IMG/VR virus record: IMGVR_UViG_3300043427_001877
Span: 1-21,103 of that record
DNA from: a virus
Direction: 5' to 3' (one strand)
Length of the DNA stretch: 21,103 nucleotides
Below the pieces are notes generated by a model that was not told the origin of the DNA, did not search any database, and worked only from the letters and a program-made list of their open reading frames with translations. The translations under genes and the position numbers were made by a program. Of the stretch, positions 1,463-9,312 are shown one piece after another (position 1 is the stretch's first letter; each line of letters begins with the position of its first letter).

Positions 1463-2107
1463 TCAGACTTCGGTTAGAACAAGACGATTTGCGTAACCAT
1501 AAGCAAAGTCAGTTCTTGCTCCATGATGTCCCCAACGAATCCACCTTTTAGCAAGTCTCATATAATCATTAATAGATTTACCAGGTGTTTTCATTTGGTC
1601 CTCAATCATCTTCCAATCACCTTCATGCAGCATGTAATCAAGTTGCGCGTCCATTGAAGAAGGACTTGCACCAATACGAGCAGCATGTGCTCCTAGTCCA
1701 TAAAAACGAGGAGCATTGGTCCATTGGATTAGACCATAACCACCACTTCTACACCCACTATAAGGCACTCTAGCACCACCTTCACATATGTTGGGAATGA
1801 AGGTAGATTCTTGGCGAATATTGCCCATAATGGTTGCTAGGGCGTTTTTGTCAGTGATTCCACGATCTTGAAGGAAATTCAAAGCACGGGACTCATTAGT
1901 ATTACATCCTTTACAAACTAATCGTTTTACTTTAGGTTTTTCGGGAACAACCTCTTTGGTCTCTGTCTCTTGAGTAGGACCTTCAGGAACAATCGCAAAT
2001 GGTTGCTGTACTGAAGATGTTGCCATACTCGGTGCTGGCAGTGTTGCCGCTGATGTTGCAACCGCACCTAAAAGAGCTACGGTTACATTTGTTAGGTTTT
2101 TAAGCAT
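1463..2107 (-). CDS. Secreted phage-tail-type lysozyme (214 aa)
   Basis: Residues 1-30 look like an export signal (MLKNLTNVTVALLGAVATSA, then ATLPAPSMA). A Pro/Glu/Lys linker (about 40-62) and a CKGC pair follow. The lysozyme-like domain from about residue 70 matches the phage tail lysozyme family. It opens NESRALNFLQDRGITDKNALATIMGNIRQES with the likely catalytic glutamate E100, then GGYGLIQWT (122-130), the glycine-rich substrate-binding signature. Such proteins cleave peptidoglycan. A signal peptide is unusual for a tail lysozyme and could suit a late periplasmic role or a virion component. No Shine-Dalgarno precedes ATG 2107. The gene ends in its own terminator and lies 203 nt from a divergent plus-strand gene. 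Confidence 0.75.
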   Translation of the reverse strand: MLKNLTNVTVALLGAVATSAATLPAPSMATSSVQQPFAIVPEGPTQETETKEVVPEKPKVKRLVCKGCNTNESRALNFLQDRGITDKNALATIMGNIRQESTFIPNICEGGARVPYSGCRSGGYGLIQWTNAPRFYGLGAHAARIGASPSSMDAQLDYMLHEGDWKMIEDQMKTPGKSINDYMRLAKRWIRWGHHGARTDFAYGYANRLVLTEV

Positions 2108-3670: not shown

Positions 3671-4129
3671 TTACTTAATCCACAATTGCCCTTCGGCAGT
3701 TCTTCTTCTTGCTAATCCCGATTCAACTCTTGTTCCTGGATTACGATAAAGATATAAAGCATCAGGAACTTTGGACCACTCTTTATCTTTTAAGACTCTT
3801 GTTATCGTATTAAAGTCAGAGCTTCCATAAAAATCAGCGCCAAGATTATAAGCAAAGCTAAGAATTGCGCCTTGTTGATTTTCATTCATCTCTCTCCAAT
3901 AAGGAATTTTAGAAAGTTTTGGAAGGAACCTATTTTTTAAATCAAACTCAAGTAAAGCATCAGCATACTTTTGAGTGATAACTCTTCCAATTTTAAAGGG
4001 AGTTCCATCAAAATCCTTTGTACTTCCCCACCCTATCGTGATTGGAAGACTTTTAGTTAAAGGATCTGGATATGCATTTAAATGGCATCCCTCAAATGAT
4101 TTAATTAAATTGATACCAACCAACGACAC
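3671..4129 (-). CDS. GH24 muramidase (T4-lysozyme-type endolysin domain, 152 aa from GTG)
   Basis: T4-lysozyme-type active site: E13 (SFEGCHLNAYPD), D22 nine residues later, and T31 in ITIGWGST. ENQQGAILSFAYNLG, the RNPGTRVESGLARRRTAE region and a C-terminal LW follow, typical of phage GH24 lysozymes. It cleaves the MurNAc-GlcNAc bond. The only start is a GTG (4129) with no Shine-Dalgarno, lying in the loop of a perfect 7-bp hairpin (4120-4137). The reading frame is open upstream to 4177, giving a 16-residue Asn/Ala-rich linker right after the slippery heptamer ending the upstream C39-like gene. Expression as the C-terminal half of a 399-aa fusion by -1 frameshifting is therefore attractive. 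Independent initiation at GTG remains possible. Confidence 0.9.
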   Translation of the reverse strand: MSLVGINLIKSFEGCHLNAYPDPLTKSLPITIGWGSTKDFDGTPFKIGRVITQKYADALLEFDLKNRFLPKLSKIPYWREMNENQQGAILSFAYNLGADFYGSSDFNTITRVLKDKEWSKVPDALYLYRNPGTRVESGLARRRTAEGQLWIK

Positions 4130-4132
4130 TTC

Positions 4133-4162
4133 GTTGGCATTGTTTGCCTTGTTGGCATTGTT
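4133..4162 (-). repeat. Two 12-bp direct repeats encoding an Asn/Ala linker
   Basis: AACAATGCCAAC occurs at 4162-4151 and again at 4144-4133 (minus strand), separated by six bases. In the muramidase frame the repeats encode NNAN-KA-NNAN, an interdomain-linker-like sequence. Repeat expansion preserving this frame suggests the stretch is translated. Confidence 0.75.
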
Positions 4163-4173
4163 AGTTGGCGTTT

Positions 4174-4869
4174 CTACTTTTTTGCTTCAAAAATGCGACC
4201 CCACCCAGTCTTATCTTTACCTTTTTCTAACCAACGATAAGTAAGGTCCGACTTCTTATATACAGCACCCTTACCATTCGTAACAGGTCCAGTATAACCA
4301 TCATTGATAGAACCATAAGGATCATTTACAACATAATCTTCACCCTTCTTACCAATCACCACAACCATGTGCCCACCAGTAGGTGCAGATAAAGAACCCC
4401 TGTGATAGATGCCAATAATGACAGGTCTGCCAGCGGCAAGCTCACGATCAAGATCAGAAAACCCAAGATTGTAACTAAAGCGTGACTTAACTCCATAACC
4501 TTCCAAAACTTTTGTTTGGACGGAGTGATCTGTTGTATCACCAACGGCAAATACTTTTTGAACATAAGCATCATCACCCTTTGGTCCTTGAAGAGTTCCT
4601 GGTCTAAAGTACTCTAAGCACATCGCACATGAGGATGAATTACAAGTTCTTTGAGCATCCCTATAATTATCTGTTTGGGGATAAAATGGAACTGGAAGAA
4701 CTCCAGGAATTGCTGGTTTGGTTCTAAAAATTCTAACCCAGTTTGAAGTATCTTCAAGTAAATCAGGTTCTTTACTAATCAAATCTACTTCTAGTTGCTC
4801 AACTGCCGCAACGTGTTTTGGATTATTAGGATCGAAATGTTGAAAAAAGTTATGAAGATCTATTCTCAT
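4174..4869 (-). CDS. C39-like cysteine peptidase, likely N-terminal half of a two-domain endolysin (231 aa)
   Basis: The peptidase C39-like fold is marked by PFYPQTDNYRDAQRTCNSSS, with catalytic C76 spaced like C-G-P-x-S-x-A-M in the family. H167 (GGHMVVVIGKKG) and D183 (VNDPYG) complete a Cys-His-Asp triad. An alpha-helical N-terminal 50 residues precede it; there is no signal peptide. Such domains cut peptide bonds, here plausibly peptidoglycan cross-links. GGAG at 4876-4879 serves ATG 4869, and a late octamer lies 23 nt upstream. The last codons are GCA AAA AAG TAG, so the heptamer A AAA AAG directly precedes the stop and is in phase for a -1 shift into the muramidase frame. Confidence 0.75.
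   Translation of the reverse strand: MRIDLHNFFQHFDPNNPKHVAAVEQLEVDLISKEPDLLEDTSNWVRIFRTKPAIPGVLPVPFYPQTDNYRDAQRTCNSSSCAMCLEYFRPGTLQGPKGDDAYVQKVFAVGDTTDHSVQTKVLEGYGVKSRFSYNLGFSDLDRELAAGRPVIIGIYHRGSLSAPTGGHMVVVIGKKGEDYVVNDPYGSINDGYTGPVTNGKGAVYKKSDLTYRWLEKGKDKTGWGRIFEAKK
4177..4183 (-). promoter_or_regulatory. Candidate programmed -1 ribosomal frameshift site A AAA AAG
   Basis: On the minus strand the heptamer A AAA AAG is in the 0-frame phase required for tandem slippage (..GCA AAA AAG TAG) and is followed immediately by TAG. After a -1 shift the next codons are GTA GAA ACG CCA. They remain open for 16 codons up to the muramidase GTG and on through the gene. A perfect 7-bp hairpin (4120-4137) lies about 39 nt downstream, farther than the usual stimulator distance. 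The alternative is a single-A deletion or sequencing error in the run. Confidence 0.5.
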
Positions 4870-6754: not shown

Positions 6755-7717
6755 TTACTGACCAATACGCCCAACAGCAATCCTTGCTTTGTTAAGCACG
6801 GAACCGCTCAAAGGAACATATCCAAGGTCATCAGCAATAGATTGTGCCTTGGAACTCAGAGCATAATTTAAAGCAGCACGGATATCATTTGTCTTTGCGC
6901 CATTCCCAGTCTTATAGGCAAGAACCCAAGTCAAAGTGGAAATTGGATATGCAGTTGCTCCAGCAGGATTGGGATTTTCACCAGCAAGGTTTGCGTCCAG
7001 TTTGATGCCATTCAGAGCAGCAGAACCAGAAGATGCAGTAGGAAGAACAAACTTACCTGCCTTGTTTTGAAGTGCTGCTGCTTGGAGTTTGTTTACCTTT
7101 ACAAATCCAGTATTCACATAACCAATAGATCCAGGAGTTTGGCGAATAGAACCTGAAACACCCTCATTACCCTTTGCACCAACACCAACAGGCCACTTAA
7201 CTGCCTTACCTACACCAGCAGTCCAACCACCAAAGGCATCCAGAGAGTTGGTAAAGGCAAAGGTAGTTCCAGAACCATCTGCACGATATACAGTGCGAAT
7301 AGGACCAGCAGCACAACCAAGTGCCTTCCAATCCTTAATGCGACCAGCAAAAATATCTACAGTTTGCTTCTGAGTGAGTTTCAGAGTACAACCTGGTTTG
7401 TTATAAGCAACAGCAATCGTTCCACCAACCATAGGAATCTGAACGACACCACGCTTTACTTTTGCTGCTTCTGCTGGTTTGATTGGTTCGTCACTTGCGC
7501 CGAAGTCAACTGTTCCCGCAAGGAATTGACGAACACCAGCACCAGAACCAACGGACTGATAATTAACCCTATTCCCAGAAGTTCGTGCATAATCTTGGAA
7601 CCATCGTTGATAAATTGGTGCGGGGAAGGTGGCACCAGCACCATTCAGAGCAGGTCCAGCAATTGCCGCAACAGGAGCAGCAACCAGACTAGCAACAATA
7701 AGATTTTTGAGTTTCAT
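6755..7717 (-). CDS. pstS: Phosphate-binding periplasmic protein PstS (320 aa)
   Basis: A signal peptide (1-20, ending VAAIA before GP) precedes the PstS fold. Phosphate-contact motifs are GAGATFPAPIYQRW, SVGSGAGVRQF, DFGASDEP and RADGSGTTFAFT. Length and order match PstS, the periplasmic subunit of the Pst ABC transporter. Phage-encoded PstS is well known in cyanomyoviruses and is thought to boost host phosphate uptake during infection. A Pho box (7767-7785) and a -10 element (7741-7746) lie upstream, predicting induction by host PhoB under phosphate starvation. No Shine-Dalgarno precedes ATG 7717. It forms a single-gene transcript between two terminators. Confidence 0.95.
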   Translation of the reverse strand: MKLKNLIVASLVAAPVAAIAGPALNGAGATFPAPIYQRWFQDYARTSGNRVNYQSVGSGAGVRQFLAGTVDFGASDEPIKPAEAAKVKRGVVQIPMVGGTIAVAYNKPGCTLKLTQKQTVDIFAGRIKDWKALGCAAGPIRTVYRADGSGTTFAFTNSLDAFGGWTAGVGKAVKWPVGVGAKGNEGVSGSIRQTPGSIGYVNTGFVKVNKLQAAALQNKAGKFVLPTASSGSAALNGIKLDANLAGENPNPAGATAYPISTLTWVLAYKTGNGAKTNDIRAALNYALSSKAQSIADDLGYVPLSGSVLNKARIAVGRIGQ

Positions 7718-7845: not shown

Positions 7846-9312
7846 TCAGAAAGTGAACTTAGTCTGGATTACACCACCCCACTTGGAGGCATTATCATTC
7901 AGACGCTGGTTGTCACTAGCGTAGAAGATAGCAGGAGTGATGCTGATATTGTCAGACACCTGATACTTGTAGAAAATTTCAAGCATCGTTGCCTTCTCAA
8001 GTTCTTCACCAGTTGGTGCTTGACCTACAGCAACACCAGCAGAGTTACCTTTTACAAACACATCTTCCCACTGAAGACCTGCCATCCAAGATTGGCTATC
8101 AGTAGCAGCACTCTCAGTACCACTTACAGTGTTCCAACCATAACCAACGGAGATTGAAGGAACAATACCAGACTGCTTAGGTTGCCAGTAAGCGTTTGCA
8201 GAGTAACCACTGGAAGTTTGTCCAGGAACAAGAGTACCAGAAGAACCATCGAGACCGTTATAAGTACGAACACGGGTTCCCTGAGTACCATAACGATATC
8301 CAAGTCCGATACCCCAGTTAGTACCACGATAACCGATTTGTGCCATAGTATTCAGAGCACCAGTTTCATCAAATACTCCAGTTTCGGAGTTGTCACCATC
8401 TTGAGCAACATAGTTTACGCCAGCAACGAAACCTTGCTTACCCTTTTGCTTCCACATAGCACCGAAACCAGCACCAGTTGCCTTGTTATAGACGCCAGGA
8501 GTACCAGCAACAGCAAAGAAGTCAAGAATATCAGACTTATATACTGAAGGAATCCAAGCCATTTCAGTATTACGAACCTTAGCACCAGCAGTCAGAGTAG
8601 TGGTGTTATTGAACGCGGGGAACTGATAGTACAGACGATCAAGGACTACATTATCACCATTATCGCTTGAGAAGTTATCTGCCTTGTCAAGTTTGAACAG
8701 GGAAGAAGAAGAACCGAATGGATCAGTGCTGAAGTTGGAAGAACGCAGACGAGTACGGAGCAAGTCCTTACCAGTAAACGAAGTATCAAAGTTCAGACGA
8801 ACATCATAGTTAAATGCTGTGCGAGTGCTGACATCACTCTTGGTATCATAACCAGGAACACCACCAAGAACGAAGGTTGCTTCACCTTTCAGTTTGGTTG
8901 TGGTGGAGAACTGAGTTGCCTCAAGTTCGCCAACCTTTGCTTCAAGACCGTCTACACGACCTTTGATAACAGCAAGTTCAGAAGAGAACTCGCTCATAAG
9001 ACGCTTGAGTTCATCGGTAACTTCAGTTACACGGTCCAAGCAAGAATTGAGAAGAGCTGCTGCCTCATAGCGGGTCATTGCCTTGCCACCACCATAGGTG
9101 CCATTAGGATAACCAGCAACGCAACCATAACGCTCTACAAGGTTGCTGAGTGCCTGATATGCCCAATCAGTTGGTTGCACATCAGAGAATTGACTAATAC
9201 TAGTAACTTGTGATTCCACATATGGTCCATATTGACCAAAAGGTTCTGCGAACGCAGCACCAGCGACTAGTGGGGTTGCAGCGAGGGTTGCTGCGATTGC
9301 GGATTTAAACAT
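7846..9312 (-). CDS. Cyanobacterial SLH-domain outer-membrane porin (Som/OprB-like, 488 aa)
   Basis: A signal peptide (residues 1-22, AGAAFA before EPF) is followed by an S-layer homology domain at about 42-92 (FSDVQPTDWAYQALSNLVERYGCVAGYPNGTYGG...MTRYEAAALLNSC). Next come a short coiled coil at about 95-132 (VTDELKRLMSEFSSELAVIKGRVDGLEAKVGELEA) and a long beta-barrel region ending in phenylalanine (TKFTF), the outer-membrane insertion signature. This is the domain order of cyanobacterial major porins, whose SLH domain anchors to the wall. A phage copy would add pores for solute entry; next to pstS, a phosphate or phosphonate role is attractive but not shown. The gene has its own promoter, a structured leader, GAGG at 9318-9321 and a terminator. 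Confidence 0.9.
   Translation of the reverse strand: MFKSAIAATLAATPLVAGAAFAEPFGQYGPYVESQVTSISQFSDVQPTDWAYQALSNLVERYGCVAGYPNGTYGGGKAMTRYEAAALLNSCLDRVTEVTDELKRLMSEFSSELAVIKGRVDGLEAKVGELEATQFSTTTKLKGEATFVLGGVPGYDTKSDVSTRTAFNYDVRLNFDTSFTGKDLLRTRLRSSNFSTDPFGSSSSLFKLDKADNFSSDNGDNVVLDRLYYQFPAFNNTTTLTAGAKVRNTEMAWIPSVYKSDILDFFAVAGTPGVYNKATGAGFGAMWKQKGKQGFVAGVNYVAQDGDNSETGVFDETGALNTMAQIGYRGTNWGIGLGYRYGTQGTRVRTYNGLDGSSGTLVPGQTSSGYSANAYWQPKQSGIVPSISVGYGWNTVSGTESAATDSQSWMAGLQWEDVFVKGNSAGVAVGQAPTGEELEKATMLEIFYKYQVSDNISITPAIFYASDNQRLNDNASKWGGVIQTKFTF

Follow-up and report, generated by a model that had tools for sequence, protein, structure and literature searches.

Conserved signals for a putative −1 ribosomal frameshift between the peptidase and muramidase frames of cyanophage endolysins

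Abstract

In this work, we are reporting that in cyanophages a C39-like peptidase gene is very likely joined to the GH24 muramidase frame downstream of it by a programmed −1 ribosomal frameshift, a conclusion reached without measurement of any product. The two reading frames, the slippery heptamer A_AAA_AAG at the end of the peptidase gene and a stem-loop behind it were established by sequence comparison, as were their conservation and covariation. The frameshift had been proposed in an earlier note on a single viral sequence, and it is now supported by comparative evidence, while the product and the ratio remain inferred. That note did not contain three of the observations given below, namely the covarying stem-loop 3–8 nt downstream of the heptamer, the T_TTT_TTT site of S-CAM7 and the mirror-image arrangement of ACG-2014f.

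Methods

The window, by which we mean the whole stretch of DNA analysed, is an IMG/VR virus record of 21,103 bases with cyanophage genes, most of them on the minus strand. The peptidase was present in 106 records of a phage collection, all but one of them named Synechococcus phage or cyanophage. IMG/VR was scanned with peptidase, GH24 and fusion queries, which gave about 400 loci. Each locus was classed by the position of GH24 relative to the peptidase, and the counts refer to distinct junctions. Of the 120 heptamer-bearing junctions, 80 that share <90% DNA identity made up the non-redundant set, S-PM2, S-SRM01 and S-CAM7 among them; clustering at 75% DNA identity leaves 27 clusters.

For the hairpin search one rule was applied to all sequences, taking the best hairpin starting 3–11 nt past the heptamer. 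Structure was assessed by folding each sequence singly and comparing it with its shuffles, and by aligning one subgroup, in place of a mixed alignment.

Results

Two overlapping frames in the window

The peptidase gene of the window (4174..4869, minus strand; frame 0, 231 aa, C-terminus ...EAKK) encodes the putative unshifted product, matches Peptidase_C39_2 in Pfam (PF13529, E=1.6e-11, 45.4 bits with a cut-off of 24) and ends GAA GCA AAA AAG TAG. The putative shift site A_AAA_AAG lies at 4177..4183 (minus strand) in the phase X_XXY_YYZ, and the frame-0 stop TAG (4174..4176, minus strand) adjoins it directly on the 3' side. Read in −1 from the heptamer, the sequence gives KK-VETPTNNANKANNANE-V(GTG)SLVGINLIKSFEG... 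and no stop is met through the GH24 ORF to position 3671. The 16-codon linker VETPTNNANKANNANE (4130..4177, minus strand), which carries two copies of the 12-bp repeat AACAATGCCAAC, both in frame, leads into the GH24 muramidase domain (3671..4129, minus strand; frame −1 versus the peptidase), a match to Phage_lysozyme (PF00959, E=2.9e-21, Pfam). The conceptual fusion of peptidase and GH24 has 399 aa. The earlier note, made from sequence alone, had claimed the GCA AAA AAG TAG ending with a phased heptamer and adjoining stop, a −1 frame open for 16 codons into the lysozyme giving a 399-aa fusion, and 12-bp repeats in frame in the linker. On re-reading of the sequence all of this held, the fusion as reading frames only, its product being inferred.

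The conserved Cys, His and Asp of the peptidase are present and Cys76 of TCNSS is invariant; among relatives the motif GGH is found in 80/80 and [NH]DP[YW]G in 79/80. The catalytic E-D-T pattern of GH24 reads FE..YPDP..TIGWGS in the window, and its strict form occurs in 76 of the 80 relatives.

As own starts of the window GH24 only the GTG at 4129 or a TTG are possible, both without a Shine-Dalgarno sequence. The same note had recognized a GTG alone, lacking a ribosome site and placed in a hairpin loop; the missing Shine-Dalgarno held, a TTG has to be added, and the loop was confirmed in part, as the GTG (4129..4127) sits in an inner 4-bp helix within the big hairpin and not strictly in its loop. 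An internal start with Shine-Dalgarno in frame, of the two-polypeptide type, was not met in the window, where the split is between frames.

The split is kept among relatives

GH24 was found in −1 with a heptamer at 120 distinct junctions, which comprise 116 A_AAA_AAG, one A_AAA_AAA and three T_TTT_TTT, the last of S-CAM7 type. Among isolates this class contains S-PM2 (with the record of a deletion mutant), S-SRM01 and three isolates of S-CAM7. A class without heptamer (25 distinct junctions) overlaps in −1 as well, mostly as ...TTC AAA TGA with the GH24 ATG overlapping the stop. The other distinct junctions are 23 in-frame fusions, three separate genes, 24 without GH24 downstream and 11 with GH24 upstream.

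These data bear on the rival explanation named in the earlier note, a one-base loss, biological or in sequencing, that broke an in-frame fusion in the window copy. In its favour, some relatives do have seven A and one uninterrupted ORF, the case regarded there as refuting; only two such relatives were found (L227 and L249). Against it, the split recurs at 120 distinct junctions, drawn from numerous metagenomes and from several isolates (S-PM2 and its mutant, three S-CAM7), and the linkers vary in length and sequence yet are open in −1. Moreover, each of the two seven-A copies stands alone among six-A relatives in the tree; they may be real variants or run-length errors. Because heptamer and split frames are conserved across the 120 junctions, separately sequenced isolates included, we consider both a base loss in this copy and an error of sequencing excluded for practical purposes.

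In the deposited S-PM2 and S-CAM7 records the GH24 'lysin' is made to begin at an ATG lying within the GH24 domain and is thus annotated as a truncated fragment, which suggests that annotators could not find the GH24 start. In L002 (2477), L008 (2945) and further isolate records the 'lysin' annotated in this way loses the N-terminal half of the GH24 domain.

The shift site is conserved beyond protein-coding need

In the bodies of the 80 homologous genes an in-phase heptamer occurs at 0 of 18,114 codon positions, while their ends carry A_AAA_AAG in 78 cases, A_AAA_AAA in one and T_TTT_TTT in one, so a chance origin of the terminal heptamer is excluded. The terminal Lys-Lys is coded AAA-AAG in 78/79 genes, compared with 8/68 for Lys-Lys elsewhere in the same genes. 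The codon before the terminal Lys-Lys encodes Ala, Val, Thr, Ile or Glu, and its third base is A in all of 79/79 genes, compared with a background of 29% (Ala/Val/Thr/Ile codons in gene bodies). The −1 linkers span 14–30 codons from heptamer to GH24 motif; their sequence and length vary, the frame stays open, and no stop was found in any of the 80 non-redundant junctions. At 63 of them a −1-frame stop lies 3 nt upstream of the heptamer, and since the −1 frame is closed there, the change of frame is possible only on the heptamer itself.

Without a systematic test, nothing was recognized that clearly corresponds to the Shine-Dalgarno stimulator of E. coli dnaX, which lies about 10 nt 5' of the heptamer. 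The G-rich GGNTGGGGN upstream codes for a conserved GWGR motif, which relatives without heptamer have too.

Termination-reinitiation has to be considered as another way of expressing GH24. According to it, GH24 would be a separate protein whose translation, coupled to that of the peptidase, starts shortly behind the stop at the GTG or some other codon, and the heptamer would be incidental. It can draw on the in-frame GTG at 4129 of the window, on the ATG or GTG that overlaps the stop in the S-SRM01-like group and on the 25 no-heptamer junctions, where TTC AAA TGA mostly comes with an ATGA overlap and GH24 has its own N-terminus of ~48 residues. However, 42 of the 80 frameshift-type junctions have no ATG, GTG or TTG before GH24, and an ATG or GTG with Shine-Dalgarno was found there in 0/80. 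Furthermore, heptamer and stem are kept where overlapping starts are absent and decayed where they are present: all six S-SRM01-like junctions lack the proper stem, and in two of them the heptamer has decayed (A_AAA_AAA in L216, GCA GCA AAG in L237). On the missing starts and this heptamer/stem pattern simple reinitiation was rejected as the main route, and we regard it as very improbable.

A covarying stem-loop follows the heptamer

At most junctions a stem-loop is found 3–8 nt downstream of the heptamer. The window has a 10-bp stem 7 nt after it, with the 5' arm GCCAACUAAC at 4160..4169 and the 3' arm GUUGGUUGGU at 4115..4124 (both minus strand), the latter within the first codons of the GH24 domain; the repeats of the linker lie in the loop. 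This region folds at −20.6 kcal/mol (z −3.6), and 1 of 200 shuffles was as low.

Mean hairpin energy was −14.7 kcal/mol versus −8.9 in dinucleotide shuffles (Wilcoxon p=1e-13), and −14.4 versus −8.2 kcal/mol when synonymous shuffles keeping the −1-frame protein were used (p=2e-14). In the 25 no-heptamer controls the hairpin excess was absent (−5.2 versus −7.7 kcal/mol in shuffles). The p-values overstate independence, because the sequences are phylogenetically related.

The outer helix joins the linker to the first GH24 codons in 66 of 80 junctions, and the paired third positions of Gly and Val codons show all Watson-Crick types (for Gly codons: TA 21, AT 25, GC 8 and CG 3). The pairs in this tally were chosen by folding, therefore the shuffle test is the proper control. 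In a subgroup of ten sequences RNAalifold recovers an outer stem of 11 bp, both sides of which show compensatory changes. Over 38 mixed junctions it detected no shared structure, since the loops are of unequal length and MAFFT misregisters the subgroup arms.

Transcriptional slippage could in principle produce the same fusion: RNA polymerase would lengthen the A6 run by one A (in S-CAM7, the U8 run by one U), so that a fraction of mRNAs would be fused. Homopolymer runs at the site speak for it, S-CAM7 having T8. Runs of about 9 are as a rule required for transcriptional slippage. Here the A run is no longer than six bases and an invariant G ends it at 116/120 junctions, and both the phase of the heptamer and the stem-loop 3–8 nt downstream are what ribosomal shifting needs. 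On these grounds transcriptional slippage was rejected as the main route; we hold it to be very unlikely.

Proposed mechanism

For ribosomal frameshifting two core sequence elements are present, A_AAA_AAG in phase and a 3' structure near the usual distance. The usual spacer from heptamer to structure is 5–9 nt, and in E. coli A_AAA_AAG is far more shift-prone than A_AAA_AAA or U_UUU_UUU (Atkins review, PMC5009743). In the proposed mechanism, ribosomes translating the peptidase gene would arrive at A_AAA_AAG, where the stem-loop 7 nt downstream would detain some of them and both lysine tRNAs would re-pair one base back. Shifted ribosomes would bypass the stop, continue with GTA GAA ACG... and so enter the GH24 muramidase frame; the resulting 399-aa endolysin would carry the C39-like peptidase at its N-terminus and the muramidase at its C-terminus. 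Unshifted ribosomes would terminate and release the 231-aa peptidase. The stop adjoining the heptamer may contribute a slow-termination pause, which is again an inference. That the shift occurs, in which ratio, and that both products act together in host lysis is likewise inferred.

A bolder reading, to which we incline by a small margin, is that Kyanoviridae cyanophages generally set the ratio of two lysis enzymes by recoding, through at least four routes in different lineages: the A_AAA_AAG −1 shift, the T_TTT_TTT −1 shift, an inverted, dnaX-like truncating shift, and internal initiation in a fusion of reverse order. If this were true, the product ratio would be a setting of lysis timing or lysis efficiency.

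Variant lineages

S-CAM7 nests in a clade of marine in-frame fusions (tree support 100) and carries T_TTT_TTT within a T8 run, followed after 5 nt by a hairpin of its own (z −4.4). From its position inside that clade, the −1 layout probably arose separately, or was lost around S-CAM7.

ACG-2014f and its relatives (L006, L275–L278, L432–L436) present the mirror image. They have a frame-0 fusion which retains GCA AAA AAG TCT GAG, followed by a GC-rich hairpin GGAGGGUAAGUUGCCCUCC (GGAGGG...CCCTCC); a −1 slip would yield KKV and then a stop, truncating the fusion. Within this group the upstream bases vary and heptamer and hairpin are kept, the hairpin by itself being less extreme versus shuffles (z −2.1). 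The same inverse frame layout was noticed in another lineage (L297).

In S-CREM1 and eight relatives (L003, L353–L360) GH24 comes first and the peptidase second in a single ORF, and a strong, GGAGG-like Shine-Dalgarno with an in-frame ATG a few nt on is located at the peptidase start. As inferred from the sequence, this internal start would also give the peptidase alone. Considering the ACG-2014f mirror image and the S-CREM1-type internal start, both products are probably functional. One marine clade (14 tree rows) has the in-frame fusion only, without heptamer, hence two products are not needed everywhere. Taken together, the variant lineages suggest that the peptidase alone plus the fusion is a favoured, not universal, product pair, and also that GH24 works with an N-terminal module.

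GH24 encoded as a separate protein carries an N-terminal extension belonging to itself. For the GH24 of the ATGA-overlap group, homology between its ~48-residue N-terminus and the peptidase N-terminus was not shown (hhalign probability 4%). In DSL-LC02 and DSL-LC03 the separate GH24 genes (L004 2568–3239, L005 2151–2819) begin with a module of ~50 aa (IDLHNFFK.YD...) that belongs to one family with the peptidase N-terminus. AlphaFold2 modelling of a natural in-frame fusion (A3) reached a mean pLDDT of 62, too low for fold searches.

Relation to known systems

Well-known carriers of −1 frameshift signals of this quality are dnaX, the tail assembly chaperones and IS elements. With E. coli dnaX the window and its relatives share A_AAA_AAG, its phase and a stem-loop a few nt downstream (3–8; 7 in the window). 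The polarity of dnaX, with a long frame 0 and a −1 frame that stops at once, is found in ACG-2014f; in the window and most relatives it is reversed, frame 0 being short, −1 long, and the stop adjoining the heptamer. Unlike in dnaX, the host gene is a phage peptidoglycan hydrolase, and an upstream Shine-Dalgarno stimulator is not established.

A Lactococcus phage lysin encoded by two overlapping genes (Shearman 1994) is cited as a lysin frameshift by the PRFect paper (PMC10885494). The cyanophage enzyme would similarly be a phage lysin out of two overlapping frames, but it belongs to another phage group, its signal is family-wide and accompanied by a covarying RNA structure, and the shift would link two catalytic domains. 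Endolysins with a full-length and a shorter product are also made by internal in-frame starts (PMC9430671; CTP1L, PMC4777826; LysIME-EF1, PMC7098653). There too one endolysin gene gives a long and a short product, which in our case is inferred; the short form is C-terminal in those enzymes, whereas in cyanophages it would be the N-terminal enzyme, obtained by −1 frameshifting. S-CREM1-like cyanophages of reverse order do appear to use internal initiation. As in phage tail assembly chaperones of the lambda G/GT type, a conserved −1 shift would join a short product to a second ORF; here, in contrast, lysis and not tail assembly is concerned, and genes and slippery sites differ.

In the open-access literature, to which our search was restricted, no report on frameshifting in cyanophage endolysins was found. 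What is new is that a signal of canonical form occurs in this gene pair and is kept throughout a large group of phages, together with its mirror form and other routes to the same products. The results correct gene models in well-studied phages (S-PM2, S-CAM7) and mean that, in many picocyanobacterial viruses, a main enzyme of lysis has so far been mis-described. Parallel routes to one product pair make the ratio of endolysin isoforms a concrete, selectable trait, and in S-PM2, being a laboratory phage, both the shift and its ratio are open to direct test.

Other genes of the window

A protein encoded at 1463–2107 (minus strand) resembles a tail lysozyme over one stretch (MGNIRQESTFIPN...) and has a signal-like N-terminus, with no NCBIfam match; it is possibly a further lysis or entry enzyme. 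A phage-encoded SomB-type iron uptake porin (NF033921) is located at 7846–9312 (minus strand), adjoined by a PstS phosphate-binding protein at 6755–7717 (minus strand).
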